Below, piece after piece: positions 2,319 through 64,000 of a stretch of 64,000 bases of DNA. Every line of letters begins with the position of its first letter. Position 1 is the stretch's first letter. Source of the stretch: Norana najaformis (taxonomy: Eukaryota; Annelida; Clitellata; Crassiclitellata; Hormogastridae); contig OZ029928.1 of the NCBI GenBank assembly GCA_964023275.1, positions 2,939,606 through 3,003,605 on the forward strand, written 5' to 3'. The position numbers were made by a program, and so were the translations under genes. Below the pieces are notes generated by a model. The model did no database searches, was not told the DNA's origin, and saw nothing but the letters and a program-made list of their open reading frames with translations.

Positions 2319-2358
2319 TTAGCAGAAATAATTTATAAGCTGACATTATCAGTGATAA
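2319..2358 (+). repeat. 40-bp direct repeat, left of copy A
   Basis: This segment starts TTAGCAGAAATAATTTATAA and recurs at 4433-4472 with one mismatch (G2354 versus A4468). It ends exactly where the transposon terminus ACACTGG starts. The two repeats flank copy A. Confidence 0.9.
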
Positions 2359-4432
2359 CACTGGTCAACATAGAAATCGTTACTGACTGGAAAAGGCCCT
2401 AATGTGTAGCATCTTGGTGTGCTGAACACGAATATAACCATAAAATTTTTTTATTGGCTCTCGTTTTGAAAATATTTCATATAGTTCATTTTTTATGTTT
2501 CACCATGTAAATTTATGCAGTAGGACTGCGACAATATCCTAAATAAGTCTAGAATGATGTAATATTCCACCTCATTGCATAATCCCATCATGGACACATC
2601 ATGCACAGTTGATTACGTCATTTTCTGATGCAATGTAAAACTACAGCCAGTCGGCTGCTGACGTAAGATGACGTCAGCAGTGTACTATATAAAGCGAGTC
2701 GGAACGGTTGAGCATTTACAATATTACAGACTTTGTGCGAGACAGTTTAAGTTGCTGTTTTATAAAACTATTATTACTTTATCCATTTAGATACAATACA
2801 GAACAGTAATGCCTCGGAAGTGCGTAAATACTGTGGACAACTTTTGTTACATTTGTGGGGAAGTGACATTTGCCAACCAGAAGAAAAGTATCACTTATCA
2901 AGTCAAGAAGGCATATCATGCTTACTTCGAATGCAAGGTTGGTGACCAAGACAAGCCATGGGCCCCGCATATATGCTGTGCTACATGTACAACACAGCTT
3001 TCACAGTGGTTGAATGGCAAAAGACCATCAATGCCGTTTGCAGTTCCCATGGTGTGGAGAGAGCAAAGCAACCACGTAGATGATTGTTACTTCTGCTTGG
3101 TTCCTCCTCTTTCCGGTGGAATAACGAAGCAAAAGAAGTCGACAATAGTCTACCCAAACATTCCGTCAGCATTGAGACCAGTTCCACCTGATGATGGACT
3201 TCCTATTCCAGAACCTCCAGCAGAATATATTTTCCTTGATTCATCTGATGAGGACAAGGGTGAGCCGACATGTTCTTCTCCTGGTCCGTCAGCGTGCAGT
3301 GATCCCGATTTTCACTGTGGTGCATCATCAACCCCACACAGAATAACACAGGAAGAACTAAATGACCTTGTTCGTGATTTGGACTTATCCAAAAACAAGG
3401 CAGAATTGCTAGGATCAAGACTCCAACAATGGAATCTTCTAGAAGAAGATGTCACAATTACTTCATATAGAAAGCGCCATCAGCAGTTGGAACCTTTCTT
3501 TATGAAGGAAGGTAATCTGGTATTCTGTTCCAATATTGACGACCTCATGAATGCCTTACAGATCACTCATGACCCACAAGAATGGAGACTCTTTGTAGAC
3601 TCTTCAACACTGAGTCTTAAGGCTGTGCTTTTGCACAATGGAAACCGTCTTCCATCTATTCCATTAGCGCATGCTGTCCACATGAAAGAGACATACGATA
3701 ACCTAAAACAGCTACTGCATTCCATTGACTATAACAGGTACAAATGGCACCTGTGTGGTGATTTGAAGGTAGTTGCCATTTTAATGGGACTGCAGCAAGG
3801 ATATACAAAATATATGTGTTTCTTTGTGTGAGTGGGATAGCCGAGCAAGAGAGTTGCACTACGTGCGGAAGGAATGGACTCCCAGACAAAACATGGCAGT
3901 TAGACAGAAGAATATCCAGCACCCAGCTCTGGTCGAGGCTCACAAAATCCTACTACCACCCCTTCACATCAAACTAGGTTTGGTGAAGAACTTCGTGAAA
4001 GCCATGGACCGCACTTCGCCAGCTTTCCGATACCTGCATGAAAAATTCCCTCGACTCAGCGAAGCAAAGATTAAAGAGGGAGTTTTTGTGGGTCCTCAGA
4101 TTAGAGAACTCTTCAAAGATGACCGCTTCAACAACTTGCTGGAGGGTGATGCGAAACAAGCATGGAATGCTTTTCGTCTAGTGTCTACAGACTTTCTGGG
4201 GAATGTTAGGGCAGAAAACTACAAGGAACTAGTAGAAGACATGCTCAAGCAGTACCAGAAATTTCGCTGCAATATGTCTCTGAAGATGCATTTCCTTCAT
4301 TCCCATCTGGATTTCTTCCCTGACCACTGTGGTATGGTTAGTGACGAACATGGCGAACGTTTTCATCAAGATATCGCAACAATGGAGCAAAGGTACCAGG
4401 GAAAATGGTCCACTACAATGTTGGCTGACTAC
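2358..4432 (+). mobile_element. DNA transposon copy A (CACTGG-terminal family), 3' end missing
   Basis: The left end reads ATAACACTGGTCAAC, matching the ends of copies B, C, D and F. The first 450 bp hold the CRE/TATA promoter, followed by the transposase-like ORF. The 3' end stops within the ORF at an Asp-Tyr codon pair that starts the conserved tail in other copies, so the terminal ~15 codons, 3' UTR and right inverted repeat are gone. The missing end is replaced directly by a second copy of the 40-bp left flank. From 2358 to about 3500 it is nearly identical to copy B at 62600-64000 apart from B's own insertions, so the pair is young. Confidence 0.82.
2659..2692 (+). promoter_or_regulatory. 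CRE + TATA promoter of copy A
   Basis: TGACGTAA (2659-2666) is followed by a perfect CRE palindrome TGACGTCA (2669-2676) and TATATAA (2686-2692), 9 bp further on. The ATG lies 117 bp after the TATA box. Copies B, C and D have the same arrangement, which supports a functional polymerase II promoter. CRE sites are bound by CREB/ATF bZIP factors. Confidence 0.7.
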
Positions 4433-4504
4433 TTAGCAGAAATAATTTATAAGCTGACATTATCAGTAATAATTATTAGCGACACCGATTTTTGCAAGTT
4501 GTGA
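2809..4504 (+). pseudogene. Transposase-like gene of copy A, frameshifted and 3'-truncated
   Basis: Same family as the intact 567-aa protein in copy C. The first segment (2809-3831) has the N-terminal zinc-binding cysteine pairs (CYIC, CATC, CYFC), the first catalytic-type Asp in LFVDSS and the second in CGDLK. The reading frame then shifts by one base at about 3822-3825, in front of the expected CxxC motif. The second segment (from 3824) carries LPPLHIKLGL, FLHSHLDFFP and SDEHGERFHQDI. The final residues up to 4504 come from the flanking 40-bp repeat, not the family tail. The start MPRKCVN is the conserved family start. Confidence 0.82.
4433..4472 (+). repeat. 40-bp direct repeat, right of copy A
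   Basis: Second copy of 2319-2358 with 39 of 40 bases identical. It abuts the truncated transposase ORF with no inverted repeat in between, and unrelated sequence follows. Confidence 0.9.
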
Positions 4505-18305: not shown

Positions 18306-18754
18306 TTGACCTGAATCGTTGATAAATCAAGTAGCACTTATCGAGGCCATGTCTTGTAAACAGTTAGAAATGCCTTGGATTCATCTGACTACAGTTCGAT
18401 GATAACACTGGATTACACGAAAAAAATTTTCCCCTGCTACTAGGCATATGTTATGTGTACTACACTAAATCGAATCTGCTGATTCCAAATCTGAAGTCAG
18501 ATTTTGTGTAGCACGTCAGGATCTTAAGATATGCAGCATACATGCTAATAATTATGCAAATTCTTTACAGAACTAGTATTTCCTTATAACTGTGTAATCA
18601 TGCAGACTCAGAGTATTCATACCAAGAAACAAAACGTTATTCTTTTATAACTTGAAATTAAAATATGTTTTAAAATGTAATATAAATATATGTATGTTAC
18701 TCAGATGAAAGCATACATTTCGAAATTTTGTCTCTAGCTTAACTCTATACGAGT

Positions 18755-20429
18755 TCAAAAGTGCTTTAGACACTTGCTCTTGCGCTTGTGAGTGGCCGCT
18801 GTTGCCCGCTGCAGAAACCAGCAGTAATCGCCCATCATGTTGGAATTGCAGTGGCCCTGATATCTTGCTTCAAAGGTGGAGATGTCTTGATGGAATCTCT
18901 CTCCATGCTCATCGCTTACATCACACAAGTTTGGTGGGAAAAAATCCAGATGGGAATGTAAGAAATGTATTTTTAGTGACATCCGGCAGCCGAGTTGCTT
19001 ATATGCTGTTAGCATGTTGCTAACGAGTTCAGCATAGTCCTCAGCTCGGTGATTCCCAAGGAAGTTTTGCACCACCAACGTACATGCATCCCAAGCGGCA
19101 AATTCCAGTGGGTTGAGCTTGGTTCTAAATACAGTATCACGCATTAGTTCGCGGATTTCTGGCCCAATAAAAATCCCAGCCTTCAGCTTAGCATCAGTTT
19201 TGACGGCTCCAAATTTATCTCTCAGTTACTGAAAGACTTGTCCAGTACGATCCATTGCCACTACGAAATTCCTCATGAGGCCCAGTTTAATGTGAAGTGG
19301 TGGTAAGTACACTTTCAATGGATCAACCAATGGTTCGTGTTGCACGTTGTACCGACCAACAATGTGCTCAGATCTAGGAGGCCACAGTTTCACTTTGTAA
19401 TGGTTGCTGTCATCACGACTGTTCCACAAGCACAAAAAGCACATATGTTTTGTGTACCCCAGCAGTAGGCCTAGAATAAGTGCTACCACTTTGAGGTCCG
19501 CACAGATGTTCCATTTGTGGTCTGAGTAGTTGATCACTTTCAAAATGAGTTTCATTGAATCATATGTCTCTTTGAGGCCTACAGCGTGGGCTATAGGAAC
19601 AGACGGCTTTTCGTTACCATTGTGCACCATCACAGCTTTCAAGCTCGCTTGGCTGGAATCTATGAACAGTCTCCACTGATCAGGAACGTATTCGCAACCT
19701 AAATTCAGCATGAGACCGTTCACGTCAGTACAGAAACATATATCATTTTCCAGTTTGTAATATGTAGCTAACTGTTTGTGACGATTACGGAAGTGTGATG
19801 TTGTGGTACCTTTTTGAAGCAAGTTCCATTCCCCTAGTCTGGAGGCTAACAGTTCAGATTTCTCCTTTGACAAAGATAGGTCCCTCACCAGATCATCTAA
19901 CTCACCTTGCCTTATCAAATGCGGCCTACCCTCTTCCAAATCTTGATAACTGGATTCATAAACAGTAACGTCATCTTCTGTATTACCATCAGAACTGTCC
20001 GTTTCATCAGCACCCGCAGCAAGCGGAAATGGTACTGGATTCTCTTCATCATGCGGCACTGGCTTTAGAGCGGACTCGCAATCAGGATAAACGATTTTAG
20101 ACTTATTTTTCTTTGAAAATCCAGCAACTTTAGTAATGCAGAAATAACAGTCTGCATGATGATTTCTTGGCTCGCGCCACACCATAGGCACAGCAAACGG
20201 CATTGAATTCCTTTTGCCATTCAGCAACTGTGTAAGCCCAGAGTAGCACACGGTGCAGCAGACATGGAGGTGCCCAATTTTTATCCTCGTCTCCGATTTG
20301 ACATCCAAAATAATACTTGTAAGCAATCAACACTCTCTTAGTTAACTTCTTGCGCTGGTCACAAAGAGTATATTTACCACAAACATAGCAAAAATTGTCT
20401 GGATGGTTAACACAGCCTCGCCTATTCAT
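18755..20429 (-). pseudogene. Transposase-like gene of copy D (one frameshift, one nonsense)
   Basis: The start MNRRGCVNHPDNFC matches the family; the in-frame Met 18 bp upstream is less conserved. One extra C near 20270 shifts the frame after NWAP. A Tyr codon expected in the V-F-Q/R-Y-L segment is TAA at 19226-19228. The downstream part continues in frame to the stop at 18755. LFIDSS, CADLK, CFLC (19 residues after that Asp), FLHSHLDFFP and SDEHGERFHQD are all recognisable. About 555 codons would be expected. Confidence 0.82.
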
Positions 20430-20501
20430 TTCAAAATTAAATCTCACACACTAGCTACAGCTATATAAGAAAACTTCACCTTCGTTCTACGCAATCTCGC
20501 C

Positions 20502-20529
20502 TTATATACTGGTATTGATGCTGACGTCA
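20502..20529 (-). promoter_or_regulatory. CRE + TATA promoter of copy D
   Basis: On the minus strand TATATAA (20508-20502) lies 13 bp downstream of a perfect TGACGTCA palindrome (20522-20529). The arrangement matches copies A and B although the surrounding sequence has diverged. Confidence 0.65.
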
Positions 20530-20835
20530 GCTCGCTGACATGCCCAATCATGTCTAGCGGCTGCTGCAGGCTTGCTGTTAGGAATATTTCAGGCGACACT
20601 TGCAGGCATGCACGTATCATTGGCAGCAATCGTGGAGACACATACAACAGAATGCACAGACATAACCGAAAACGAGTTCTTACGTCATTACTTGAATGCA
20701 TGCATAACTTAAAATCTAGACGTGCTGGGCAGATTCTGACTTCATATTTGGAATCAGCACATTTGAATCAATATAAAGCACATGCATTACTTTCAGTAGC
20801 AAAATCGTTGTGATCCAGTGTTATATGTCTTTCTA

Positions 20836-25439: not shown

Positions 25440-27030
25440 CTCATCCATCATTTACGGCATATGACAACCTGGTTTTTACTCAAAGCAAACTATATTCGGT
25501 CTGTCTCTCTACTGAGGGTGCGTCCCCTCCACTCTTCCCCCAACCGACTGCCGGATGCCGACCCTTCAACCGATCTCCATTGAGGGCTTATGCCCGCTGC
25601 TGTTAATACAGCCATCGAAATCTTGTGAACTGTACTCCCTGTCGACGTTTCTTCTAAGGGAATTCGTGGATGTTTTACTACTTTTCTTACACTTATTGTT
25701 TAATGCTTCCTTGGGTCAGGGTTCCCTCCCAACATCTCAGAAACGGGCCATCGTTTTCCCTTCCCTCAAACGCTCTGTCATAGACATAAACGATATGTCC
25801 AACTATCGGCCCATCGCAAATTATCCTTTCTCTCAAAATTGGTTGAAAAACACTTGTCAATGCAACTTATGCAATACCTTGAGTCTAAAGCCCTCTTATC
25901 CAGCCAAAAATCTGGCTTCCGAAGATCCCATTCAACTGAATCGGATACTTTTGGAGCTTTCGACTGGGGGCATGTGACCCTACTCTTCCTCTTTGATTTT
26001 AGTGCTGCTTTCGACACTGTCGATCACAATACTCTCCTGAAGCGCCTTGAGAGATCATTCGGCATCTCTGGCCCTGTTCTCTCATGGTTCTCTTCATTTC
26101 TATCTGGCCGCTCTCAATCTGTCATTTTCGGCTCTACACGCTCCAGGTGGTCCCCAGTAACAATGGGTCTTGCACAGGGCTCAGTCTTGGCTCTCCTCTT
26201 TTTCATTCCCCATACATCTGACCTGAGTCTCATCCTGTCCTCAACGGAGGTGGTGTCCCACCAATATGTAGATGACACCCATGCTTACATCTATGGCCAG
26301 GCCGCTGAGGCGGTTTCAATGGTTCGGAGGGTACTTGAGGCATCGGCGAATCTTGAGGCTTGGCTGAAATCTAATCGCCTTCGCCTAAATCCTAACAAGA
26401 CCAATTTATCTGACTCAGCAGTTCTGTCCAACTTTCAAAGATTGATAAAGATAGACTTATCTTTATCTTTTCCCCATGTCTCCTTTTTCTATTCAGTACG
26501 CGACCTAGGAGTGACTCTGGACCAAGAGCTCACACTGCGGGAGCACATAAAGAACGTCTGTCGCTCTTTCTTTTATCACCTACGGCAAATTCGCACCATC
26601 CGACGCTACCTCACGACCCAGGCCGCAACTACCTTGGTCCATGCATTCGTCTGCTCAAGAATTGATTTTGGCAATGCCGTCCTCGTAGTCCTAGATCCTG
26701 CTACACTGCACAACTCCAGTCTGTCTTGAATGCTGCAGCTCGCCTGATTGGTGGCATTTCTATGTAAGTTCAGCCACATTTCTTCATTTATGGCGGAACA
26801 ATTGCATTGGCTCCCAATACGGGAGCGTATTCTCTTCAAAATCTTGATCCTCGCGCCGAACTGTCTTGTTGGCTGTTCTCTGCTTTATCTAAGGGAGCTC
26901 TGCATCCCCCTTTCTTCTATTCCTGGCCGCAGACCACTGCGTTCGTCGGTTCAGGGCAACCTCGCCCCACAACGTGTTTGACACGCGGTAGCCTCAAGCA
27001 CGTGATCAGCTCGCGGAAAACAAATCCGTA
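25440..27030 (+). mobile_element. L2-like LINE with reverse transcriptase, defective
   Basis: 5'-truncated. 25555-25977 covers the RT N-terminus (MSNYRPIAN); 25839-26729 covers FRRSHSTES, LFDFSAAFDTVDHN, GLAQGSVLALL and QYVDDTHAY (catalytic Asp-Asp near 26267), then VRDLGVTLDQEL and SRIDFGNAV; 26748-27030 covers LHWLPIRERILFKIL and the end. The usual PQGSVLGP is degraded. Several frameshifts. Related to the fragment at 13480-13890. Confidence 0.8.
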
Positions 27031-27229: not shown

Positions 27230-28034
27230 CACATTCAATTTGCTCCTACATTATCTCACCTTAAGATCAATGGCTTGCAACGCCAAACATCGTCTAGTAA
27301 GTTTTGCAAATTTAGACTTGGGAACAGTCAAACAAACAGATTATAATCAGTATATACAAGAATATGCGACCGTAAAATGACGTTTTTCGGTTTAAATAAC
27401 GCTAATACAATAGAATAAGCTTCTTTGCCAATAGTTGCCCATTTCTTATGGTTTCTGTCGATTTAGATTATTAAACAAAATAAGTCTTTCTCGACCTTTA
27501 CTCTCAGGTTGTGCTAAAACAGCAACGTCACTACTGTCACAGTACAAGTTTACATCATCACCAACACGAATTATAGCTAAATGGAATTTGAAACAAAAAC
27601 GTTTAAACATTTTAAAAGCACTTTAAGTGCATCTGTCCAACAAAACGTCTATGGCACTTCCTTACATGCTGAATCCGATAATGTTACAGTAATCTTCAAA
27701 AAATCGTGAACTGTCAGTAATGAACGAAAATTCATAAAAGCTGCTTCAGTTGCTTCTTGGTCTTTGGTCTTTCCATTTCCACAAAGGAAGATTCCTTATC
27801 GGAAACTATTTGCAGATTTTCCAGTTCTAACAACATGACCAACATATTTAATTTCTGGGTTAGCGAATTCACATTTCTTTAGGTTCAAAGTCAAATCATG
27901 TACACGCACTCGTCGTTAAACAATTCCAAAAGTCGTAAATGAGTGTTTAATTAATCAGAATCTACAGATACATCGTCTGTATATGATTCCGAAAAAGCTT
28001 TTACAGCTGAAGCACAGCATTAAATGCTTTCATA
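27230..28034 (-). mobile_element. Ty3/gypsy pol remnant, downstream part (RT end and RNase H)
   Basis: The reverse strand shows AVKAFSESYTDDVSVDSD, in which the RT YxDD reads YTDD, then LTLNLKKCEFANPEIKYVGHVV, RPKTKKQLKQLL, and RNase H pieces (KWATIGKEAYSIV, AKLTRRCLALQAIDLKV). Many stops and frameshifts. It is interrupted by transposon copy C; the matching upstream part is at 30369-30545. Confidence 0.7.
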
Positions 28035-28035
28035 A
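27972..28035 (+). repeat. 64-bp direct repeat, left of copy C
   Basis: Recurs at 30369-30432 with one mismatch (G27975 versus A30372). The sequence is part of the gypsy RT coding region, so it belongs to the target and not to the transposon. It ends at the ACACTGG terminus of copy C. Confidence 0.9.
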
Positions 28036-28351
28036 CACTGGCCAACACATAATTTGTTGCTTCAAATGTTAGAACTGTTTCTGGGTATATTTGACCTGCT
28101 GATTCCAGAAAAGGCACCAGTTTTCTCCCAGCAGGTCTAGTTTTCGAGATATAGAACATTATGCCATATACCAGTCCTTGCCTCTGCTCGCCCATAAAAC
28201 ATAAGGCTATAGCTATAATTATGTAGTGCTCAATTTATTATGTGATACACTAAATAAACATAATAATACAAATACTTAAAAGAAAATGGTAGTACCTGAA
28301 ACTGTACTTATATGATACCAAACAGAACAAGTTTGTTATAAAAATTTCAAG

Positions 28352-30055
28352 TCATTCGACACCGAAGAAGCTCCTTTTGTACGATTTCCGAGTGTGGCAT
28401 CTGCCGGAACAATCGCGCATAATATTCCAGCAATAGTCTGCCATCATGTGTGCATCCCATCTTCCTTGATATCGATTTTCCATTGTTTTGATGTCTTGGT
28501 GAAATCTTTCACCTTGCTCTTCGCTGAAGTCACCAAGATTCTCTGGAAAGCGATCTAAGTGACTGTGGAGATAATGAACTTTAATGCTCATGTTGCAGCC
28601 AAGCTTGTTGAAATGAAGAAGCATATCCTCTACTAGTTGTGCATAATTGTCTGCCTTCTTGTTGCCAAGAAAATTTTTAGTTACAAGAACAAAGGAAGAC
28701 CAGGCACAAGATTCGATTTCATTCATTGATGGTATGAAAAGTGGGTCATTCATAAGTTGCCTGATCTGTGGACCATCGAAGATTCCAGCCTTCAATTTTT
28801 CCATTGTAATTCCTGGTAACTTGTGTACTATGTATTCGAAGCATGAACCTTCTTTATTCAAAGCCCTGACAAATTGTTTCATCAGGCCTAGCTTTATATG
28901 TAGTGGTGGCAGTATGATCCTATCTCGTGCCACCAAAGATTCCTTGATTACATTTTGAGCTCCAACCACCATGTCTTTCCTCGAAGGCCAATCTTTTCTT
29001 GTCCAATGTTCATGCTTGGCTCTACTGTCCCAAAGACACAAAAAGCAGGGATACTTTGTGTAGCCACTTTGTTGACCAAGGAGGAAATTTACCATCTTCA
29101 AGTCTACACAAATTACCCATTGATGTTCTTTGTATTCTATCTTTTCCAGTACTAAAGAGATGGCATTGTACTCTTCTTTCATCCTGGTGGAGTGACCGAT
29201 TGGAATAGAACCAAATTTGTTGCCGTTATTTAAAAGCACACATTTCAGACTACGTTTTGAACTGTCGATAAAAAGACGCCACTCATCTGGGCTGTAATCC
29301 GACAGACCAATGTTCTTCAATAAGTTGCTGATGTCATTACAGAATACTAGGTTGTTGTCTTCGGTAAAGAATGGCAGCAAATCCTTTTCTCTGTTTCTAT
29401 AAATTGTAATTTTCGTTCCAGGCTGAAGTGCATTCTTTTCCTTTAGTCTGGACGCAAGCAATTCAGAGGACTCTTTGGAAAGATTTAAGTCCCTGATCAG
29501 ATCACTCAACTCTTTTTGGTCAAAACGTTCACTGTGTGAAGTTGATTGGAAATCACTGTCACTGCCCCCACTTTCTTCACTTTCGTCATCTTGTCCGATA
29601 TTGGACATGCAAGTCTCATCGTCTGAGAGCTGAGGTAGTTCGCGAAAAGGTGGAACTGGTACAATATCCGAATGCGGAACAGGTCTCCTGGCTGAAGGTA
29701 TATCAGGGTAAGACAACTTGTGACGATTATTTCGATTGATGCCTATGATATTAACCATACAAAAGTAACAGTCGTCGAAGTGGTTTATCTGTTCCCTCCA
29801 AACCATCGGTACACCAAATTTCAGGCAGCTTCTCTTTCCAATTGTCCAGTGGCGCAATTGTTCAATACAAGTTTTGCATACTGTATGAGGAGCCCATTGC
29901 TTATCTTGATCTCCAAGTTTGACACCAAAATAACCTACATATGCTCTTTTTACAAACTCAGAAATCGGTTTCCTCTTTGCTTTTAGTGTGTATTCCCCAC
30001 AAATGTAGCAGAATATGTCTGGATGGTTAATGCAGCTCCGTCTGGAAGTAGCCAT
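28352..30055 (-). CDS. Candidate DDE-type transposase, intact (567 aa)
   Basis: Uninterrupted ORF starting MATSRRSCINHPD. The N-terminus has likely zinc-binding pairs C16-C19, C60-C63 and C96-C99. Residues 145-175 are acidic and probably disordered; 178-205 resemble a helical segment. The core follows: D264 in RLFIDSSKRSL, D318 in CVDLKMV, C337-x2-C340 19 residues later, LPPLHIKLGL (382-391), H494-x4-H499 in VHYLHSHLD, and conserved E513 and E516 in SEEQGERFHQDI. The D-D-C(2)C-H(4)H-E order is that of the RAG1/Transib, hAT and CMC transposases. Family members are common in invertebrate genomes as uncharacterised proteins. The transposase role is inferred from this signature and from the flanking inverted repeats. 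Confidence 0.72.
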   Translation of the reverse strand: MATSRRSCINHPDIFCYICGEYTLKAKRKPISEFVKRAYVGYFGVKLGDQDKQWAPHTVCKTCIEQLRHWTIGKRSCLKFGVPMVWREQINHFDDCYFCMVNIIGINRNNRHKLSYPDIPSARRPVPHSDIVPVPPFRELPQLSDDETCMSNIGQDDESEESGGSDSDFQSTSHSERFDQKELSDLIRDLNLSKESSELLASRLKEKNALQPGTKITIYRNREKDLLPFFTEDNNLVFCNDISNLLKNIGLSDYSPDEWRLFIDSSKRSLKCVLLNNGNKFGSIPIGHSTRMKEEYNAISLVLEKIEYKEHQWVICVDLKMVNFLLGQQSGYTKYPCFLCLWDSRAKHEHWTRKDWPSRKDMVVGAQNVIKESLVARDRIILPPLHIKLGLMKQFVRALNKEGSCFEYIVHKLPGITMEKLKAGIFDGPQIRQLMNDPLFIPSMNEIESCAWSSFVLVTKNFLGNKKADNYAQLVEDMLLHFNKLGCNMSIKVHYLHSHLDRFPENLGDFSEEQGERFHQDIKTMENRYQGRWDAHMMADYCWNIMRDCSGRCHTRKSYKRSFFGVE

Positions 30056-30212
30056 AACCTTAAGGATGTTCGCATCTGAGGAATTAAATGACTAACCTAA
30101 AAAATAGTAAGAACATGTAGTTATTTAATGCTCACATTCACAGATTGTTCTTGCGACCAACTCTTAATATGCCCTAAGACGACTGCGGCTGCTCTAGCTT
30201 TCAGGAGGCGGT

Positions 30213-30239
30213 TTATATAGGCTATAAATGCTGACTTCA
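30213..30239 (-). promoter_or_regulatory. CRE-like + TATA promoter of copy C
   Basis: On the minus strand TATATAA (30219-30213) follows TGAAGTCA (30239-30232), a one-base variant of the CRE, 12 bp upstream. ATG lies about 158 bp downstream of the TATA box. Confidence 0.55.
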
Positions 30240-30368
30240 GCATAATCTATTTACATAGTTCGAAACCATGAAACGCTGTTTAAGCACAAATAAATTCTAA
30301 ATGAGGCCATGAATTTAGTGCTGAGTAAGCTGTAGGCTACGGAATAGTTATTTCGTTGAATCAGCAAT

Positions 30369-30432
30369 ATCATCTGTATATGATTCCGAAAAAGCTTTTA
30401 CAGCTGAAGCACAGCATTAAATGCTTTCATAA
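30369..30432 (+). repeat. 64-bp direct repeat, right of copy C
   Basis: Second copy of 27972-28035, 63 of 64 bases identical, continuing on its right into further gypsy RT sequence. Confidence 0.9.
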
Positions 30433-30545
30433 TAGTTCACTCGTAAAATTCATGCTGTGTTACAAATGCCATTTTCTGTTTCTCTGACTCTTGTACAGGA
30501 CAAGTCTAATAAGCACTTTTGCAGTCAAGTACAAAATAAATTTTA
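30369..30545 (-). mobile_element. Ty3/gypsy pol remnant, upstream part (RT fingers/palm)
   Basis: The reverse strand reads FVLDCKSAY, then MAFVTQHEFYE, the usual LD..SA......AFVT..G.YE segment of gypsy RT, then the 64-bp repeat. The MPFGL block expected next is missing, so a small deletion preceded or accompanied the events here. Pairs with 27230-28034. Confidence 0.65.
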
Positions 30546-33644: not shown

Positions 33645-35012
33645 ACAATGGACATCAAAGAAACGTCTGGTCTGCTAATTAAATAAATTTATCGGGGAAG
33701 ATATCCAAGTATGAGTGACAAAATGCATCTACCGAGACATACTGCGCTTCATTTTTCTAAACGCCTCTAGCATATTTGGTACCAACTCGTCATAAACTTC
33801 TGATTTGTGGTTTCCATGCAAATTGTAAACAACCTGTTTGTAAGCTTCCCAAGCAGCCAGCTCCAGTTAATCGAGTTTTTATGATAAGATTGAATGAGAT
33901 TAGTTCACGTATTTGTGGTCCAACAAATATTCCAGCCTTCAGTTTGGCATAACCTAACAATCTTCCAAATGTTTCCTGTAGGTATTGGAATCCTGCACCT
34001 TCCACTGTCATCGCCTTTACAAAGGTTTTCACAAGGCCCAGTTTAACGTGAAGTGGAGGAAGAAATATCCTTTTTGAGGATGCATCATCAGCACATGTTG
34101 TACGTTGAAACTTCCTGGAGTTAAGTCTTTTCTGACTGGCCATTTTTTGTCTTTCAAAGGTTAGCATCATTTCGACTATTCCACAAAGAAAAAGCACATT
34201 TTTTGGTGTAGCCAAGCTCCAGCCCAAGTAGAAGGCCTATTACTTTCAGAACTCCATATATATTCCACTTGTGGTCGTTATATTTGTTACATTTAGTAGA
34301 ACTTCCATAGACTCGTTCGTCTTCTTCATGCCGACTGCATGTGCCACAGGCACAACAGTTGCCATTGTTGAGGAGCACTGCTTTCAAACTGGCCTTACTG
34401 GAATCAATAAATAACCTCTATTCATCAGGTTGGTGTTTGTAGCCTAGTTCTCTCATTTGACCATTGACATCAGTGCAGGAACAAACAGCATTCTCCATCT
34501 TAGAGACTGATGCCAAGCTAATATGGCGTACACGAAAAAGAGAAATCTTTATGCCTTGTGTTATCTGTTTTCACTCTTCCCAGAATTTTCGCAGTAATTC
34601 CGCCTTCTCCTTAGACAAATTCAGGTCTTAAATGAGGTCATTTAACTGATGTAGATATATCTAACCATTGGGTTGAAGACAGCACAACTGATAATGTTCG
34701 GGTTTTCCTTGCATTCAATTATGATGTGCAGGTCTGTGCATGAGTATGTAGAACTTGCATAGATGTGTACATGCAAGCAGACAGCCTTTTCAACAGTGTG
34801 CTCATATTTATTGACCAGTTTCTGACCCTTTTGTGCAATATGTACATACCATTGTTATCTAGAATATGCAAAATTACTAGTTTTTTGTTTCACATTTTTA
34901 ATAAAACTAAAATCCTGAAGTGATGGTTCAATTCTAACTTCAAATTTGAATGGGCGAATCAGTCAAGAAGATATATTTGCACATCATTAGTAAACTTGTT
35001 GTTGACCAATGT
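33645..35012 (-). mobile_element. DNA transposon copy F, both ends degenerate, internally decayed (1.4 kb)
   Basis: The left end is ATAACAATGGACATC; the right end on the reverse strand is ATAACATTGGTCAACAAC, close to copy A's terminus. Both are followed outward by unit X halves, and the uninterrupted unit X' at 36545-36965 acts as a related empty site. The interior holds a decayed transposase-like gene on the minus strand. The N-terminal part of the gene and the promoter are missing. Oldest-looking copy in the window. Confidence 0.72.
33680..34650 (-). pseudogene. Transposase-like gene of copy F, heavily decayed
   Basis: Reading across frames, the recognisable segments are DLNLSKEKAELL, SLKAVLLNNGN, HKWNIYGVLKVIGLLLGLELGYTK, FLPPLHVKLGLVKTFVKAM, AKLKAGIFVGPQIREL and a degraded HSYLDIFPDKF. 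The second catalytic-type Asp (in C-D-LK) is replaced by Val (YGVLKV), and multiple stops and shifts are present. Not functional. Confidence 0.75.
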
Positions 35013-37256: not shown

Positions 37257-38020
37257 ATGCTTGACTTTAAAACTGCATCTAACATCGCCACATGCATAGT
37301 CCATGTTAAATTAGACTATTTCAATACACTTTTCCTGTACAGAGGTTCCACCCAAATAAGCCGCTTTCAAGGCATCCAAATTGCTCTTCATCGTGCTGTC
37401 ACCGAACCCCCAAACACCATCACATCACTCCTGTTCTTAAATCACTTCACTGGCTTCAAATATCTGAACGAATCGAGTACAAAGTCCTATCACTTACCTA
37501 CAGCACATTTCACCCTCTCAACCCTCCTATCTACGTGAGTTATTTACAATCCAACCACTCCGCTCAACCCCCTCCTCTCTTGCCCTAACACTTCTCCGCC
37601 CGCCCGTCAACTCATCCTTAAAATTTGGTAATCGCTGCATAGCAATAGCTGCCCCACCACTCTGGATTAAACTCCCCCAGAACTGCGACAGTTGTCTGAC
37701 CCATCAAACAAAATCACCAATACTCCGCCGCTTTCAATGTCTACTTTGGCCTTTCACTCAAAGCTGAACATACTCCTCTTTCTCAGATCCTATACCCTTA
37801 CTCCTCTTCCTCTTCTTATCTCTCTTTCCGCTCCAATCATCACCCACCGTAGCCGCCACGCTGTCTGTCTACCTGACTTTTGAATCTTGACCTGGAACCG
37901 AACACTTTTGTCTATCGATTTAGTTTTAGCTGAGCGCCTATGATTAAGCTGGTCCCCTGACTAGCTTTCTCTGGGCGCTGTATAAATCTCGAGATTACGA
38001 ATCTTACGATTACGATAGAG
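37257..38020 (+). mobile_element. LINE 3' fragment ending in CGATTA-type tail
   Basis: The plus strand encodes ASNIATCIVHVKLDYFNTLF and, in other frames, the SLHWL-type and APPLWIKLP segments. It ends with the TGAGCGCCTATGAT...GCTGTATAAATCTCGAGATTACGA tail shared with 54100-54172 and 55640-55705. Confidence 0.65.
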
Positions 38021-42638: not shown

Positions 42639-43361
42639 TGTAGCGGACTTCCCCCACACGGGAACATACGAGTTCGCAAAGGAACACATGGAGCGCAGCG
42701 TGTTCGCCCTTTCCCCGCACGGGAACCCATGGAACTCAACGAGTTCGCAAGGGAACACATAGAGCGCAGCGTGTTCGCCCTCCCCCCGCACGGGAACCCA
42801 TGGAACTCAACAAGTTCGCAAGGGAACACATGGAGCGCAGCGCGTTCGCCCTTCCCCACACGGGAACCCATGGAGCGCAATGTGTTCGCCTTCCCCCGCA
42901 CGGGAACCCATGGAACTCAATGTGTTCGCCTTCCCCCGCACGGGAACCCATGGAGCGCAGTGTGTTCGCCTTCCCCCGAACGGGAACCCATGGAACTCAA
43001 TGTGTTCGCCTTCCCCCGCACGGGAACCCATGGAACTCAATGTGTTCGCCCTCCCCGCAAGGGAACGCAATGCGAACTCGATGCCTATAAAAGGGATACA
43101 AGAGAAGAGAAGAAGAAGAAGTGTAGAGGGCACGGAAGTCTTAGAGTAAGAACTGTTTCGATGCTTCATGTTCTGTTCAAGTGTCTTGTGAGAAATAAAA
43201 GGGCGATAGCTGATCGATCGACTTGGCGTTCAGTCTCTTGAGGACCTCAAAAGCTTATCTTGCGGGCTGGCAGTAGATAGGCGCTGGTAGGGAGTCTTCG
43301 AGTAGAGTGGCAGAACACCAGCACCTTGACAGGGGATTCGGCATCCCCGATTTGGAGTAAC
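42639..43361 (+). repeat. 5' LTR with tandem repeats, TATA and poly(A) signals
   Basis: The first 420 bp consist of repeats around CGGGAACCCATGGAACTCAA in 40-bp and 71-bp forms. A unique part follows with TATAAAA (43086-43092) and AATAAA (43194-43199). The repeats generate long spurious ORFs in several frames on both strands. Confidence 0.85.
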
Positions 43362-43378
43362 TGGTACCAGAAGTGGGG
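43362..43378 (+). other. Primer-binding site
   Basis: TGGTACCAGAAGTGGGG directly after the LTR. It starts with TGG, complementary to a tRNA 3' CCA end. The tRNA was not identified. Confidence 0.6.
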
Positions 43379-43593
43379 TACCTGTCAACTGCAAGTCGAA
43401 ACCGATCATCTACACCATCATCTACACTTTGTTGGACGTTGCGGACGTTTCACCCGATCAACTTAGAAGCTCGACGCCCGGTGTACGAAGAGCGACAATG
43501 GAGGTCTTCAGACTCGACCGTAGCCAGTTTCTGGAGAACATCGACTTCGACAGCTCACGACCGGCGGTGGCGAACGGCGGCGAACGAAGATAG

Positions 43594-44460
43594 ATGCAGG
43601 GAGAAAGTGAAACGGCTTCGAAGCTACCGTCGTTGGAAAACGTCGTCTACCGCAAGACTCCGATGAAGCCTGGGAAGTTCGACGGAACGGGATCCCTGGA
43701 GTCGTTCCTGACACAATTCGAGGTATGTGCCAAACACAACAAGTTGACCGATTCCGACAAAGTGGACTTTCTGCGATGTGCCCTCGATAAGGCTGCCACG
43801 CAGTTACTCTGGGATTTCGGAGCTCGGCAGGACGTGACGTATGAGGAGTTGACACAGAGGTTGCGACAACGATATGGGACCGAAGGACAAGCAGAGACCT
43901 TCCGGGCGCAACTCTACTACCGCCGTCAACGGGCCGATGAGAACCTGAGCGACCTCCTTCACGATATCCGTCGGTTAGTGGTACTTGCTTATCCGGTGCC
44001 CTCCAACGAGACGACCGAAATCATTGCCCGCGACGCTTTCCTTGAGGCCATTCAGGATCGAGAGTTGTCACTGAAGGTCCGGGAGCGCGAACCCAAGACG
44101 CTGTACGAGGCGTACCGGATGGCGCTACGTATGGAAGCGTACCAACGGATGCGGATTCCGAGGAACGACGGAGGCCACCGAACCGTGTTCGAGGAACCCA
44201 GGAGTCCGACCTAAACGTGCCACTCCAGAATCAATTGGACCAGTTTCTCAAAGCACAGCGTGGGGAACAGCAGTGTTGGCAACGGGACATGGCAAAGAAG
44301 ATAGAACGGCAGCTAGAGGCTTTGCGCAACCATCTTGCGATCGACACGGAAGCCAACCGACGCGACGAGATGGCAAGGGATGAAAGCCAGGGACGGGATG
44401 TGGTCTGCTACAACTGAGGACTGAGAGGTCATATCGCTCGTGGGTGCCGTCAGCCCCGAC
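43594..44460 (+). pseudogene. gag of the gypsy element, broken
   Basis: 43594-44214 encodes a capsid-like domain (KPGKFDGTGSLESFLTQFE, DKAATQLLWDF, AFLEAIQD). The frame then shifts near 44212, and the continuation (44217 on) has a coiled region and a CCHC knuckle whose second Cys codon is TGA (CYN-stop-GLRGHIARGC). Gag is therefore interrupted twice. Confidence 0.8.
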
Positions 44461-44518
44461 GGCCCCGTGCTGGTACAGATGAAGTGACACCCGATGGTCC
44501 GGAGGCGCAGACGCCAAA

Positions 44519-47500
44519 ATGCAATACGGGAATCTGTCAAGTATGGCCCCTGCATGGATGACAGAGCCAAAGGAAGTCCTGCCGGGAGTTCACGTAGCAC
44601 GTGTGTTAATAGGGAATGCTGCCCAGATTCTGGTTGTAAATCTCAATGGAGATCCCGCCACACTCCCTAAGGACCAGCTTCTGGGAAGATTGCACCCTGT
44701 AGAGGTGGAGACATGTGCTGGAAAAGGAGTGGGTCCCAGGGAAGAGGGTGAAGCACCCTTTATCACGGGTTTGATGTAAGGGCTTCCCGAAGAAGTGACC
44801 CAGGCTACCAGGAGGTAGTTGGCGAGTCTGTTAATAGAGTTCCGGGATGTTTTCTCCGTGGGAGAAGGGGACCTAGGGAGGACGACCCTGTGTAAGCATC
44901 GGATTGACACCGGGAACTCGGCCCCGTTCGTCAGCCTTTGAGGCGACAGCCTCTTCCGTATCGGGTAGCCATTGATAAGCAACTGGATCAGATGTTGGCA
45001 GATGGTGTAGTTGAGCCAGCTGTGAGTGAGTGGGCAGCTAATGTAGTCCTGGCACGGAAGAAGGACGGTACCCTAAGGTTTTGCATCGACTATCGCCAGT
45101 TGAATGAGCGAACCAGGAAAGACTCATACCCGCTGCCAAAGATTGACGAGTGTTTAGATGCCCTGGCTGATGCGGGATGGTTTAGCACCTTAGACTTACG
45201 TAGCGGCTACCATCAAGTGGAGGTGGATCCTAGGGATGCAGATAAGACGGCTTTTGTTACTCGCCGAGGGATTTTTAGATGGCGTGTTATGCCGTTTGGC
45301 CTATGTAATGCGCCGGCGACATTCCAGCGCCTTATGGATATTGTGCTCTCGGGGTTAAACTTTGAGATTTGCCTGGTGTACATCGACGACGTGATCGTTT
45401 ATGGAAGCACGCCCGAGCAGCATCTGGGTAGGCTAAACAGGTGTTCCAGCGGCTCCGTGGGGCGAATCTCAAGCTTAAACCTAGCAAATGTCGCATGCTG
45501 CGCCGCTGCGTGAGTTTCCTGGGGCATATAGTAACGCCGAAGGGAATAGCCGTCGACCCGTCCAAGGTTCACGAGGTGGTGTTCTGGCCAGCGCCCGAAC
45601 GATTAAGGGAGCTACGTGCCTTCCTGGGGCTATGTGCCTATTATCGTAAGTTCATCCGAGATTTCTCACGCACCGCCGCTCCACTCTTCGCGCTGACTAA
45701 GAAATCTCGATCGTTTGTGTGGGACGAAGAGTGCCAGGTGGCCTTCGACCAGTTGAAGGTGGCTTTGGTAACGGCGCCGGTTCTGGGCCTGCCAACGGAT
45801 GAAGGGAAGTACGTCCTGGACTGTGATGCCTCGGATGAAGGAATTGGTGCGGTGCTGTCCCAGTGCGACGGAGATAGGGAGAGAGTAATCGCGTATGGGA
45901 GTCGCCTGCTCTCGGCAGCGGAGCGGCGATATTGCATCACCCGCAAGGAGCTGTTGGCAGTGGTACACTTTGCCAAGCTCTACCGGCAATACTTGTTTTG
46001 CCGACAGTTCATCCTCCGAACCGACCACGCAGCCCTCCAGTGGTTGCAGAAGACCCCAGAGCCTAACGGGCAGCAGAGTCGATGGCTGGAACGCCTCGCA
46101 GAATTCGACTTTCAAAAAGTTCATCGACCGGGGCGGAGGCACGGGAATGCGGATGCCCTTTCCCGACGACCTTGCCGTCAGTGTGGATGGGAAGAGACTC
46201 CAGCGATAGTGGCTGCCATGAGACGGTCCGAGATGACGGGTGCGGATGCAGAGGGAGAAGATGAGCTTTCCGGAGGAGTTGAGCCCACTGAGGAGGGACG
46301 AATTGTGGAAGCGCAGAAGGCCGACCCCGACCTCGCAGTGGTAAGGGAATGGCTAAGCCCAGATGCGAGAAGGCCCGATTTCCAGAAAATCATGTGGGAG
46401 AGTGAAGCTTTGAAGACTTATTGGCACCAAAGGGACAGCGTGTACGTGAGGAACGATGTAGTCTACAGGAAGGCAGCGGATAGTACGGAACAGTTGCTGC
46501 TACCCAGATCCTGGAGGGAGGATTTCATGAAACTTGCCCACACCGGCGTGACAGGGGGGCACCTGGGAGTCCCCCGTACCCGCTGGCAAGTTAGACGCCG
46601 AGGCTATTGGGTTGGTTGGTCAAGGGAAGTTCGGCGGTTTTGCCGCCGTTGTTCGCAGTGCTGTCAATACCGCCGCGGTCAGCCTCCCAGGCAGGGTCCG
46701 CTACAGCCATTACCCTGCGGAGAGCCGTGGGAACGAGTGGGTGTGGACATCACGGGGCCCCATCCAAAGAGCAGGAAGGGCCATATCTACATCTTGACGG
46801 TGATGGATTATTTCTCGAAGTTTGTAGAGGCAATTCCGGTGGCGAACCAGGAGGCCGCAACGGTGGCTCGAGCCTTGGTGGATACGGTGATCGTCCGGTA
46901 TGGAACCCCGTTGCAGATCTTAACAGACCGCGGTACTAACTTCGATGGGATTTTGTTTAGGGAGGTGTGCACGCTTCTGAGGATCGACAAGCTGAGGACC
47001 ACTAGCTACCACCGTAGTGGGAATGGCCTGATCGAACGATTTCATAGGACGCTGAATTCCATGATCGGGAAAATAGTGCATACGGACCAGCGGAACTGGG
47101 ACGAGTTGCTACCGCACATCCTGACGGCCTATCGGGCCTCCGTCCATGAGGCCACCGGTTATTCGCCAAACCTGTTGATTTTCGGCAGGGAGAATAGTGA
47201 TCCCCTGGATTTGGTGTATGGAAGAGCGCCAGGCCCAGCGGAAAGAGGGGGGACCTATGCATCCTATGTAGAGAGCCTGGGTGAGCGTATGGAAACCGCT
47301 TACAGGGTGGTAAGGGAACGCTTGCGGAAGGCGGCGGAGCGGCGGAAGCATACCTACGACCTAAGGGTTCTCCCGGTTGAATTCACGGTGGGTGATTGGG
47401 TGTGGTTCTATACCCATCGGAAATATCCAGGTCGCAGTCCCAAGTGGCAGCGTTTGTACACGGGGCCCTTCATGGTCATGCGACGGTGTGGACCTGTGAA

Positions 47501-47693
47501 CTATCAACTGCAACGATCTCAAAGGGCCAATCCGTTCGTAACCCACGTTGACAAGTTGCGGCCATGTTACGATCGAGAGTCGGGAGTTTGGAACCAAGAA
47601 GGTCCTTCGTCAAAGAACCCTGTGGAGACCATGCCGGAACCGACCCAGGGGCGGCCATTACGCGCCACCCGGAGGCCAGAACGCTTCCAATAA
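44519..47693 (+). pseudogene. pol of the gypsy element: RT, RNase H, integrase; protease absent
   Basis: After the knuckle only about 60 bp remain before the spacer with LPGVHVARVLIG and the RT, so the protease is deleted. A one-base shift occurs at about 44925. The RT (44938-45430) has FCIDYRQLN, TLDLRSGYHQ and YIDD (residues 148-151), then a second shift near 45435. The open frame 45441-47693 (750 codons) carries the RT end, RNase H (LDCDASDEGIG, TDHAALQWL), the integrase zinc domain (H..H and C-x2-C) and the D, D, E core in VDITGP, LTDRGTNFD and GLIERFHRTL, followed by a basic C-terminal domain. Confidence 0.85.
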
Positions 47694-47743
47694 AGAGGCG
47701 TTGTGTGACTGCGGACGTCGTCATGGTAACCATTGTTTAACGC

Positions 47744-47750
47744 TATAAAA
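47744..47750 (+). promoter_or_regulatory. Internal TATA box upstream of the extra ORF
   Basis: TATAAAA, 44 bp before the ATG at 47794 and just after the pol stop, with CAGTC about 25 bp downstream as a possible start site. It suggests separate transcription of the third ORF. Confidence 0.55.
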
Positions 47751-47793
47751 GTGCTGTGAGCGACGTGCGACAGTCTTTTGCGAACAAGTCACG

Positions 47794-48651
47794 ATGGCAG
47801 ATGTTACTCTCATGTGCGAGATTTGCGGTCGTATGTTTCGTGGGCGGTATGCAGCCAAGTCTCGACGCCGCCATTGCCTTCAGTACCACGTACCAGACAT
47901 CAGGGGCATTCATGTAGTCAACGCCTCCGAGTCACTGGATTCTGACCGGCCTTCGACCAGTCGACCTTCACCGAACTTCGCCGAGCTGATGGAGGAAGAA
48001 GACCCGGGTCTGTTGGATGCCTCGGCCTGTGACCTGATGCTGGCCGACCTGCTGTCCGACGACGTCGTGTCTGCGTCATGGCCGGAGGCGGACGCTGCCG
48101 TGATCACTGCCCTTGAGGCCGACTTGTTAGAGGACGAAAACCTCTTTTTCGGCCCGTCTCCGTCGGAGGCAGAAGAAGACGTCCTGCCGGCCCGTCAGCC
48201 TCCTCCCGGTACCTTCTTCCTCGCTGCGGACGCGGACAACGTCGCGGATGCGAGCGATGACTTCGACGTCACTCTGGACGCTCCTGCCGTGGTGGCGGAG
48301 GAAGCGGAAGGCCTCTTCGACGCTCTGGTTGGCGAAGATCTACGCGTGTCGCCAGGCGTCGCCCTTCCGGACCTGGACCCTCCTGCCTCCTCTGAGCCTC
48401 CGCTGCGCCCGGATGTCCTGCCGGTTTCGGAGGACGAACTAGCCACGATCTCGGAGTTCCTATACTCTCATGCTTCTGGACTTGCCTTGCAGCAATGTTG
48501 GGAGGCTATGGGGGCGCGGCTGCCTTACTGCCCTGAATGGGTGGCCCGCGGTGTCTACCGTGGACGTCGCTCGTTGGCCCCGCGGCCCAAAGCGGAAGTC
48601 CGTCCTTGGAATCAGGATGTGGAAGATGACGATGTGATCTTGTTGGACTGA
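47794..48651 (+). CDS. Extra ORF of the gypsy element: acidic protein with one C2H2 zinc finger (285 aa)
   Basis: Intact although gag and pol are broken. Residues 8-32 form a C2H2-type finger (C8-x2-C11-x15-H27-x4-H32) with a basic RYAAKSRRRH linker. Residues about 55-225 are strongly acidic and hydrophobic-acidic (LMLADLLSDD, DDFDVTLDAP), like transcription activation domains. The C-terminus (228-268) is a more ordered region with ISEFLYSHASGLALQQCWEAM, followed by an acidic tail. It is not an envelope protein: no signal peptide or membrane span. A DNA-binding activator of the element's own LTR is a reasonable guess, not shown. Confidence 0.65.
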   Translation: MADVTLMCEICGRMFRGRYAAKSRRRHCLQYHVPDIRGIHVVNASESLDSDRPSTSRPSPNFAELMEEEDPGLLDASACDLMLADLLSDDVVSASWPEADAAVITALEADLLEDENLFFGPSPSEAEEDVLPARQPPPGTFFLAADADNVADASDDFDVTLDAPAVVAEEAEGLFDALVGEDLRVSPGVALPDLDPPASSEPPLRPDVLPVSEDELATISEFLYSHASGLALQQCWEAMGARLPYCPEWVARGVYRGRRSLAPRPKAEVRPWNQDVEDDDVILLD

Positions 48652-48949
48652 CCTGGTGAGAGGGAACTTACGTGTTCGTTTACTGTCAAGTGTGGCCATT
48701 TTGTTTGATGGATGAGTGAAAACCGCGTATGCGGCCGTTTAGTTTTTCGTAAAGCCATGTGGCTTGCATAATTTGCTTGTTCACAGCTGTCAGTAATTGT
48801 GTATGCCATTTTTGTAACTGCCGTCTGAACCTGTGACTGTTTAATGGAGCCGAAGTGTCGGCCATTCTGTTTTATTTGTGTGCTATAGAGACTGTATTTT
48901 ATGCGTGGGTTTGTGCGAAGTTGGTTTCGAACCGGGACGTTCGGTTTCT

Positions 48950-48964
48950 TTGGTGGGAGGAGTG
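48950..48964 (+). other. Polypurine tract
   Basis: A purine-rich stretch (GGTGGGAGGAG) lies just before the 3' LTR, the usual plus-strand priming position. Confidence 0.55.
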
Positions 48965-48965
48965 T

Positions 48966-50434: not shown

Positions 50435-52887
<2,453 letters not shown>

Positions 52888-54172: not shown

Positions 54173-54192
54173 CTGAGCGTTTGCCACGTATG

Positions 54193-54644
54193 CCGTCAAA
54201 ACTGATGCTAAGCTGAAGGCTGGAATTTTTATTGGGCCAGAAATCCGCGAACTAATGCGTGATACTGTATTTAGAACCAAGTTCAACCCACTGGAATTTG
54301 CCGCTTGGGATGCATGTACGTTGGTGGTGCAAAACTTCCTTGGGAATCACCGAGCTGAGGACTATGCTGAACTCGTTAGCAACATGCTAACAGCATATAA
54401 GCAACTCGGCTGCCGGATGAAACTAAAAATACATTTCTTATATTCCCATCTGGATTTTTTCCCACCAAACTTGGGTGATGTAAGCGAAGAGCATGGAGAG
54501 AGATTCCATCAAGACATCTCCACCTTTGAAGCAAGCTATCAGGGCCACTGCAATTCCAACATGATGGGCGATTACTGCTGGTTTCTGCAGCGGGCAACAG
54601 CGGCCACTCACAAGCGCAAGAGCAAGTGTCTAAAGCACTTTTGA
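54193..54644 (+). pseudogene. C-terminal part of a transposase-like gene (copy E)
   Basis: Encodes AKLKAGIFIGPEIRELMRDT, FLYSHLDFFPPNLGDVSEEHGERFHQD and the tail ending KCLKHF. The usual FLHSHLD reads FLYSHLD, so the middle His of the HxxHxH string is lost, while the outer pair (H-x4-H) remains. Catalytic Asp region absent. Confidence 0.8.
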
Positions 54645-54992
54645 ACTCGTACAGAGTTAAGCTAGAGACAAAATTTCGAAATGTATGCTTTCATCTGAGT
54701 AACATACATATATTTATATTACATTTTAAAACATTTTAATTTCAAGTTATAAAAGAATAACATTTTGTTTCTTGTTATGAATACTCTGAGTTTGCATAAT
54801 TACACAGTTATAAGGAAATACTAGTTCTGTAAAGAGTTTGCATAATTATTAGCATGTATGCTGCATATCTTAAGATCCTGACGTGCTACACAAAATCTGA
54901 CTTCAGATTTGGAATCAGCAGATTCGATTTAGTGCAGTACACATAACATATGCCTAGTAGCAGGCGAAAAAATGTTTCGTGTGATCCAGTGT
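54193..54992 (+). mobile_element. DNA transposon copy E, 5'-truncated
   Basis: Closely matches the 3' part of copy D in opposite orientation, including the 348-bp 3' UTR, and ends TTCGTGTGATCCAGTGTAAT, the inverted form of ATTACACTGG. Only about 450 bp of the ORF remain. The right flank is LINE coding sequence that continues at 55000. Confidence 0.8.
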
Positions 54993-54995
54993 AAT

Positions 54996-59034: not shown

Positions 59035-59159
59035 ACCCTTTTGAGTTGTTCTTTTGACAGCATCGGCAGAAAATGTTTTTAACTTATGCTAATATTGTAT
59101 TATGCTTGTATCTTTCTGCCGTAGACGAATCAACAAATGCCTTCATTCATTCATTCATT

Positions 59160-62599: not shown

Positions 62600-62899
62600 A
62601 CACTGGTCAACATAGAAATCGTTACTGACTGGAAAAGGCCCTAATGTGTAGCATCTTGGTGTGCTGAACACGAATATAACCATAAAATTTTTTATTGGCT
62701 CTCGTTTTGAAAATATTTCATATAGTTCATTTTTTATGTTTCACCATGTAAATTTATGCAGTAGGACTGCGACAATATCCTAAATAAGTCTAGAATGATG
62801 TAATATTCCACCTCATTGCATAATCCCATCATGGACACATCATGCACAGTTGATTACGTCATTTTCTGATGCAATGTAAAACTACAGCCAGTCGGCTGC

Positions 62900-62933
62900 T
62901 GACGTAAGATGACGTCAGCAGTGTACTATATAA
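62900..62933 (+). promoter_or_regulatory. CRE + TATA promoter of copy B
   Basis: TGACGTAA (62900-62907), TGACGTCA (62910-62917) and TATATAA (62927-62933), identical in arrangement to copy A. Confidence 0.7.
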
Positions 62934-63196
62934 AGCGAGTCGGAACGGTTGAGCATTTACAATATTACAGACTTTGTGCGAGACAGTTTAAGTTACTGTT
63001 TTATAAAACTATTATTACTTTATCCATTTAGATACAATACAGAACAGTAATGCCTCGGAAGTGCGTAAATACTGTGGACAACTTTTGTTACATTTGTGGG
63101 GAAGTGACATTTGCCAACCAGAAGAAAAGTATCACTTATCAAGTCAAGAAGGCATATGATGCTTACTTCGAATGCAAGGTTGGTGACCAAGACAAG

Positions 63197-63308
63197 CCAT
63201 GGGCCCCGCATATATGCTGTGCTACATGTACAACACAGCTTTCACAGTGGTTCCATGGGCCCCGCATATATGCTGTGCTACATGTACAACACAGCTTTCA
63301 CAGTGGTT
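63197..63308 (+). repeat. 56-bp tandem duplication within copy B
   Basis: The unit starting CCATGGGCCCCGCATATATG occurs twice in a row (63197-63252, 63253-63308). Copy A has it once. Confidence 0.9.
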
Positions 63309-63431
63309 GAATGGCAAAAGACCATCAATGCCGTTTGCAGTTCCCATGGTGTGGAGAGAGCAAAGCAACCACGTAGATGACTGTTACTTCTGCTTGGTTC
63401 CTCCTCTTTCCGGTGGAATAACGAAGCAAAA

Positions 63432-63635
63432 CAACTGCCCAGTCCAGGAGCTTTGCCTTTGTTGGCCCTTCCAGCTGGAACTGCCTTCCTCTTGACCTCC
63501 GGCTTCAGTTACTTAGTCTCTCTCCTACCCAGTCTCGCAAACGCCTGAAATCCTTTTTGTTTGTTCAAGTCAGGAGCGCCACTGTTTCCTAAGTGGCGCT
63601 TTATAAATGTTCGTTTACAATTACAATTACAATTA
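63432..63635 (+). mobile_element. 204-bp LINE 3'-end insertion with CAAAA duplication
   Basis: CAAAA flanks both sides (63427-63431, 63636-63640), and copy A has the empty site. The insert encodes the end of an L2-type ORF2 (LDLRLQLLSLSPTQSRKRLK) and ends TTTACAATTACAATTACAAT, a short repeat tail instead of poly(A). 5'-truncated. Confidence 0.85.
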
Positions 63636-64000
63636 CAAAAGAAGTCGACAATAGTCTACCCAAACATTCCGTCAGCATTGAGACCAGTTCCACATGGTGA
63701 TGGACTTCCTATTCCAGAACCTCCAGCAGAATATATTTTCCTTGATTCATCTGATGAGGACAAGGGTGAGCCGACATGTTCTTCTCCTGGTCCGTCAGCG
63801 TGCAGTGATCCCGATTTTCACTGTGGTGCATCATCAACCCCACACAGAATAACACAGGAAGAACTAAATGACCTTGTTCGTGATTTGGACTTATCCAAAA
63901 ACAAGGCAGAATTGCTAGGATCAAGACTCCAACAATGGAATCTTCTAGAAGAAGATGTCACAATTACTTCATATAGAAAGCGCCATCAGCAGTTGGAACC

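Follow-up and report, generated by a model that had tools for sequence, protein, structure and literature searches.

A probable Chapaev3-type transposase gene and its one-ended element copies in a contig of Norana najaformis

Which enzyme is encoded by a long uninterrupted open reading frame (ORF) in a 64,000-nucleotide stretch of contig OZ029928.1 of the annelid Norana najaformis—hereafter the window—and how did the element carrying it come to lack one of its ends? The ORF is read here as the transposase of a Chapaev3-type DNA transposon, a known animal group of the Chapaev/CMC-Transib lineage, with a probability of roughly 0.87. A preliminary description of the locus had proposed a transposase of an uncharacterised family from the lineage related to RAG1—the enzyme assembling human antibody genes. 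The transposase and its RAG1-related lineage stand, whereas the family is most likely the known Chapaev3.

The 567-residue protein carries D264, D318, C337-x2-C340, the pair L385-H386, H494-x4-H499, and E513/E516, and in addition three N-terminal Cys pairs (C16/C19, C60/C63, and C96/C99). Apart from the Leu-His pair and the N-terminal Cys, all of these residues had been listed in the preliminary description and are found at the positions given there; the claimed distance of 19 residues from D318 to C337 is likewise present. Searches at an expectation value (E) of ≤0.001 returned 2,099 related proteins with the intact protein as query and 2,002 with codons 1–340 of copy A, a further copy in the window; the best 120 of each were listed, and these two sets may overlap. 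One relative is 96% identical to the intact protein over the full length. The conservation alignment consists of 142 of the 240 listed relatives plus the window protein, hence 143 rows with 45–96% identity to the latter, and covers the best-scoring relatives. All 143 rows share D264, D318, C337, C340, L385, H386, and H499; H494, E513, and E516 are each kept in 142 of the 143, and the six N-terminal Cys show a single substitution among the rows ungapped there. The Asp, Glu, Cys, and His residues singled out beforehand are thus near-invariant and do not vary freely. Either E513 or E516 may provide the catalytic Glu. Most of the 240 rows carry no species; those named are animals—beetles, Hydra, a worm lizard, a turtle, a frog, a lamprey, an electric eel, and a spider, among others—plus one bacterial metagenome bin, a row that is most likely animal contamination.

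According to PMC4079192, Chapaev3 is characterized by CAC…GTG ends, a TWA duplication flanked by A and T, and the motifs C(2)C, LH, and H(4)H. The transposases have 556 residues (Garfield) or 78 + 484 residues (Merrow) in elements of 2.3–2.5 kb, and the group is known from lampreys, fishes, reptiles, insects, and mammals (PMC4079192). In the window, CACTGG forms six recognised ends, including both ends of copy B, and is missing from a decayed copy and from the broken ends; the A-TWA-T insertion context is found at six of six ends, and C(2)C, LH, H(4)H, and the DDE triad are present throughout the 143-row alignment, save for the single departures given above. Length of the protein (~560 residues), length of the element (~2.3–2.5 kb), and scattered animal hosts agree with Merrow, Garfield, and Conan as well, and the single uninterrupted ORF is as in most Chapaev3, Merrow and Garfield having two exons (PMC4079192).

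The hexamer CACTGG by itself was rejected as an end marker since it is frequent in the window (43 occurrences versus a mean of 25.83 expected); several non-end occurrences sit in repeated sequence resembling long interspersed nuclear elements (LINEs), e.g., CACTGGCTTCC, which is present three times. Read on the outward strand, ATWA|CACTGG is found at 6 of the 43 occurrences, all six being ends of these copies. Contrary to the earlier statement that the genes lie between CACTGG inverted repeats, both ends are present in copy B only (18406 and 20820); copy A and the intact copy have the left end only, copy D the right end only, the decayed copy none, and copy E a left end with its right side off the window. 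The end regions of copy B have a 98-bp stretch in common at 77% identity. Five occurrences of the motif TGCTGATTC are present in the window: Four lie 61–80 bp inward from an element end, and the fifth is at the right, broken end of the intact copy. The motif is a likely transposase-binding site.

Structural comparison of the predicted model, a check proposed in the preliminary description, gives a RAG1/Transib-like fold over residues ~175–557 at 10–15% identity: A RAG1-like catalytic core fold is found, and an RNase H core is detected. With RAG1, Transib, and RAG-like transposases, the protein thus has in common this fold and an Asp pair with CxxC and Hx4H, and differs from them by the low identity, another N-terminus, and the TWA context; the target duplication of RAG1 and Transib is 5 bp. 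Mouse RAG1 has the order D600, D708, C727-x2-C730, H937-x4-H942, and E962, and hence the same D-to-C spacing of 19; the fold comparison is an independent test of RAG1 likeness. The same comparison picks up the RNase H core of hAT (Hermes) and the P element, however at much lower structural scores (9.9 and 12.0 versus 19.6). Their ends and duplications differ as well: The target duplication of hAT is 8 bp, and the flanks of copy B hold no 8-bp direct repeat. The least credible of the identities weighed is that the ORF encodes a hAT transposase or is not a transposon's enzyme at all but a transposase-derived host gene.

No Pfam model reaches the cut-off for the window protein, and among 44 family members searched at E 0.1, 13 families are seen, none of them a transposase family; zf-AD stays below the cut-off for the window protein and is found in 17 of the 44 members. 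The sequence search of the PDB gave no transposase match, the fold search of BFVD no match with E ≤0.001, and the searches of viral_contigs and genome_contigs no relative with flanks. An animal EnSpm/CACTA element would account for the C(2)C and H(3–4)H motifs and the CA..TG ends, which are common across the lineage (PMC12730594). However, Transposase_21 matches neither the window protein nor any of the 44 members, and SmTRC1, an animal element, has this domain together with CCC ends and direct repeats of 2 bp (PMC1636069), in contrast to the TWA target context here—making this identity very improbable.

Rather than belonging to Chapaev3, the ORF could represent a separate, unnamed group of the CMC/Transib clade, sister to Chapaev3, with ends and target common by descent. 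The Pfam results are in line with this, as is the absence of the word transposase from all names shown for the 240 listed relatives, which are called hypothetical, uncharacterized, or are unnamed; in addition, the comparison with Chapaev3 was by hallmarks and not by labelled sequence. Yet the checkable hallmarks match Chapaev3, including the A and T beside TWA and the LH pair, with the exception of the inexact duplication of copy B, and the host spread of Chapaev3 (PMC4079192) resembles that of the named relatives. A separate group is improbable, and membership in Chapaev3 is preferred. Several points weigh against the latter. Membership is most likely but is assigned by hallmarks, the named families being compared by description. 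The sole two-ended copy, B, is flanked by TAA on the left and TTA on the right, i.e., by an inexact duplication with one mismatch. The template modelling (TM) scores of Foldseek are moderate, 0.37–0.47 by query length. The N-terminal domain, modelled on its own with two window copies, reached a predicted local distance difference test (pLDDT) value of 36.8 and gave no usable model. An N-terminal zinc domain, Chapa, is named for Chapaev3 (PMC4411706); a possible counterpart here is the set of six near-invariant Cys in three pairs, with zf-AD only below the cut-off.

By analogy with the family, the N-terminal Cys-rich region and the core would bind the element ends and the subterminal TGCTGATTC, D264, D318, and E513 or E516 would coordinate the metal ions for cleavage at CAC, and CxxC and Hx4H would hold zinc. 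Excision followed by reinsertion at ATWAT would then make the TWA duplication.

Table. Positions of the transposase gene, the element copies, and their flanks in the window
Feature	Positions	Strand	Remarks
40-bp flank of the good end of copy A	2319..2358	+	repeated at 4433-4472, 97.5% identical
Copy A element	2359..4432	+	left CACTGG end; gene frameshifted, broken off after ~residue 541 of the intact protein
Copy A, tblastn match	2815-4447	+	frameshifted
Second copy of 40-bp flank, broken end of copy A	4433..4472	+	continues into unoccupied ATAAT (4469-4473)
Copy B element, 2,415 bp	18406..20820	-	both CACTGG ends; flanks ATAA left, TTAT right; gene decayed
Copy B, tblastn match	20426-18776	-	frameshift and stop
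64-bp flank at the good end, intact copy	27972..28035	+	repeated at 30369-30432, 98.4% identical
Probable Chapaev3-type element with intact ORF	28036..30368	-	left terminus present; right terminus (5' of gene) missing
CACTGG terminus	28036..28041	+	ATAA before it (28032-28035)
Subterminal motif TGCTGATTC	28097..28105	+	61-69 bp inside left end of the element with the intact ORF
Probable transposase ORF, 567 residues, uninterrupted	28352..30055	-	ORF reading, tblastn, alignment, fold comparison
Subterminal motif TGCTGATTC	30358..30366	-	broken right end; copy B counterpart 61-69 bp inside right terminus
Second copy of 64-bp flank, broken end of the intact copy	30369..30432	+	continues into unoccupied ATAAT (30429-30433)
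Decayed copy	33844..34648	-	ends unrecognisable; tblastn, CACTGG survey
Copy D element	54192..54991	+	C-terminal part, right CACTGG end
Copy D, tblastn match	54201-54623	+	C-terminal part
Copy E element	62601..64000	+	left CACTGG end; cut by window end
Copy E, tblastn match	63056-63995	+	interrupted, runs past window end

The element with the intact gene ends on its right side at 30368, adjoining the subterminal motif and ~60 bp short compared with copy B, and lacks CACTGG there. Because one terminus is lost, this element should not move as a unit, but its enzyme could act in trans. The window was scanned for direct repeats of 30–200 bp with ≥95% identity, non-overlapping, ≤6 kb apart, and filtered for low complexity, so that tandem copies with overlap and repeats of greater length or divergence lie beyond it. 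Only two pairs were obtained—the 64-bp flanks of the intact copy and the 40-bp flanks of copy A. Both repeats stop at the base immediately before CACTGG, and an unoccupied ATAAT target adjoins both copies. The flank repeat is hence present in two of the three one-ended copies whose broken side is in view (A, the intact copy, and D). Copy D was weighed as a third case: Its left side (53567–54172) matches its right flank at 86–87%, and it is counted neither way because both sides are copies of one LINE-like family. Three copies of this repeat family lie at 53567–54172, 54992–55706, and 37297–38012, one of which contains the right end of copy D; the left flank of copy D ends in (GATTAC)n, and the empty form of its site, in the paralogous repeat at 37297, reads ATAGT.

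Aborted gap repair probably explains both the missing terminus and the 64-bp repeat in the flanks. In this process, the left gap end would copy the element from the sister chromatid, the right gap end would copy the flank from the empty homologue, and the two ends would then be joined. Excision sites in rice carried filler DNA in 58 of 94 events (PMC4423477), and a switch of template while a gap is being filled is documented as well (PMC8277862). Two points weigh against aborted repair: For the captured-sequence set of PMC8277862 itself, breaks inside elements fit better than excision gaps, and an insertion by one end predicts the same layout. The latter would explain the odd flanks only: The left end alone would be joined at ATAAT, the other target strand would break 40–64 bp upstream, and the ragged element end would be joined there, giving a long target duplication. 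Both cases show what this entails: One end has an exact CAC joint at which the repeat stops exactly, the opposite end is ragged, and an empty site lies on the other side. However, filler DNA (PMC4423477) and template switching (PMC8277862) could yield the same layout, and there are two cases only, the third one-ended copy, D, being uninformative between its LINE-like copies. One-ended insertion is a doubtful explanation, and a capacity of this group of RAG1-lineage transposases to integrate through a single end is unlikely. If it existed, its signature would be an exact CAC joint, a ragged opposite end, and a 40–64-bp target duplication. Such a LINE-like product, made by an enzyme of the cut-and-paste type, would be a natural model of RAG insertions by a single end. 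The available parts of PMC4423477 and PMC8277862 hold no description of the one-ended layout, which is no claim of its absence from print. Aborted repair remains the preferred origin.

The Chapaev3 assignment would provide a likely name and mechanism for a family of ~2,000 relatives without a Pfam match above cut-off. An intact, compact, single-ORF cousin of RAG1 and Transib is a candidate for biochemistry of the Chapaev branch, and with the paired one-ended copies, the breakage of RAG-like elements can be tested in a simple case.

Besides the intact gene, tblastn yielded five further copies or fragments in the window; their letters were assigned in this analysis and may differ from those of the preliminary description. 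In the present lettering, the 19-residue D-to-C spacing, given for a copy D, is kept in A and B; HxxHxHLD, given for A and E, is kept in A and B, copy D reading HFLYSHLD with the two His of Hx4H retained; and (D/E)EHGERFHQD, likewise given for A and E, is kept in A, B, and D. Between copies A and E, which have different flanks, identity is 99% over stretches of 664 and 365 bp and 98.9% over 182 bp; between B and D, it is 97% over 807 bp. This near-identity, together with the 96%-identical relative of the intact protein, suggests recent movement. No complete working element is seen in the window: A, B, and D are broken, as is the decayed copy; E is interrupted; and the element of the intact gene is short of one end. 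Copy E contains a 201-bp insertion (63427–63642) with an 8-bp duplication, AAGCAAAA, on both sides and an end in repeated AATTAC, which looks like a short interspersed nuclear element (SINE) or the 3′ end of a LINE. In addition, its gene bears a 56-bp tandem duplication (63197–63308).

The window further holds a Ty3/gypsy-like element (42639–49682) with a GC content of ~51–57% and capsid, RNase H, and integrase matches; its direct repeats (42639–43354 and 48966–49682) are 87.6% identical and contain 40-bp tandem repeats. A C2H2 zinc-finger array extends over two neighbouring ORFs (50485–51576 and 51581–52147). LINE-like ORFs feature an endonuclease match at 6573–7535 and reverse-transcriptase matches at 25839–26729 and 59073–59930.
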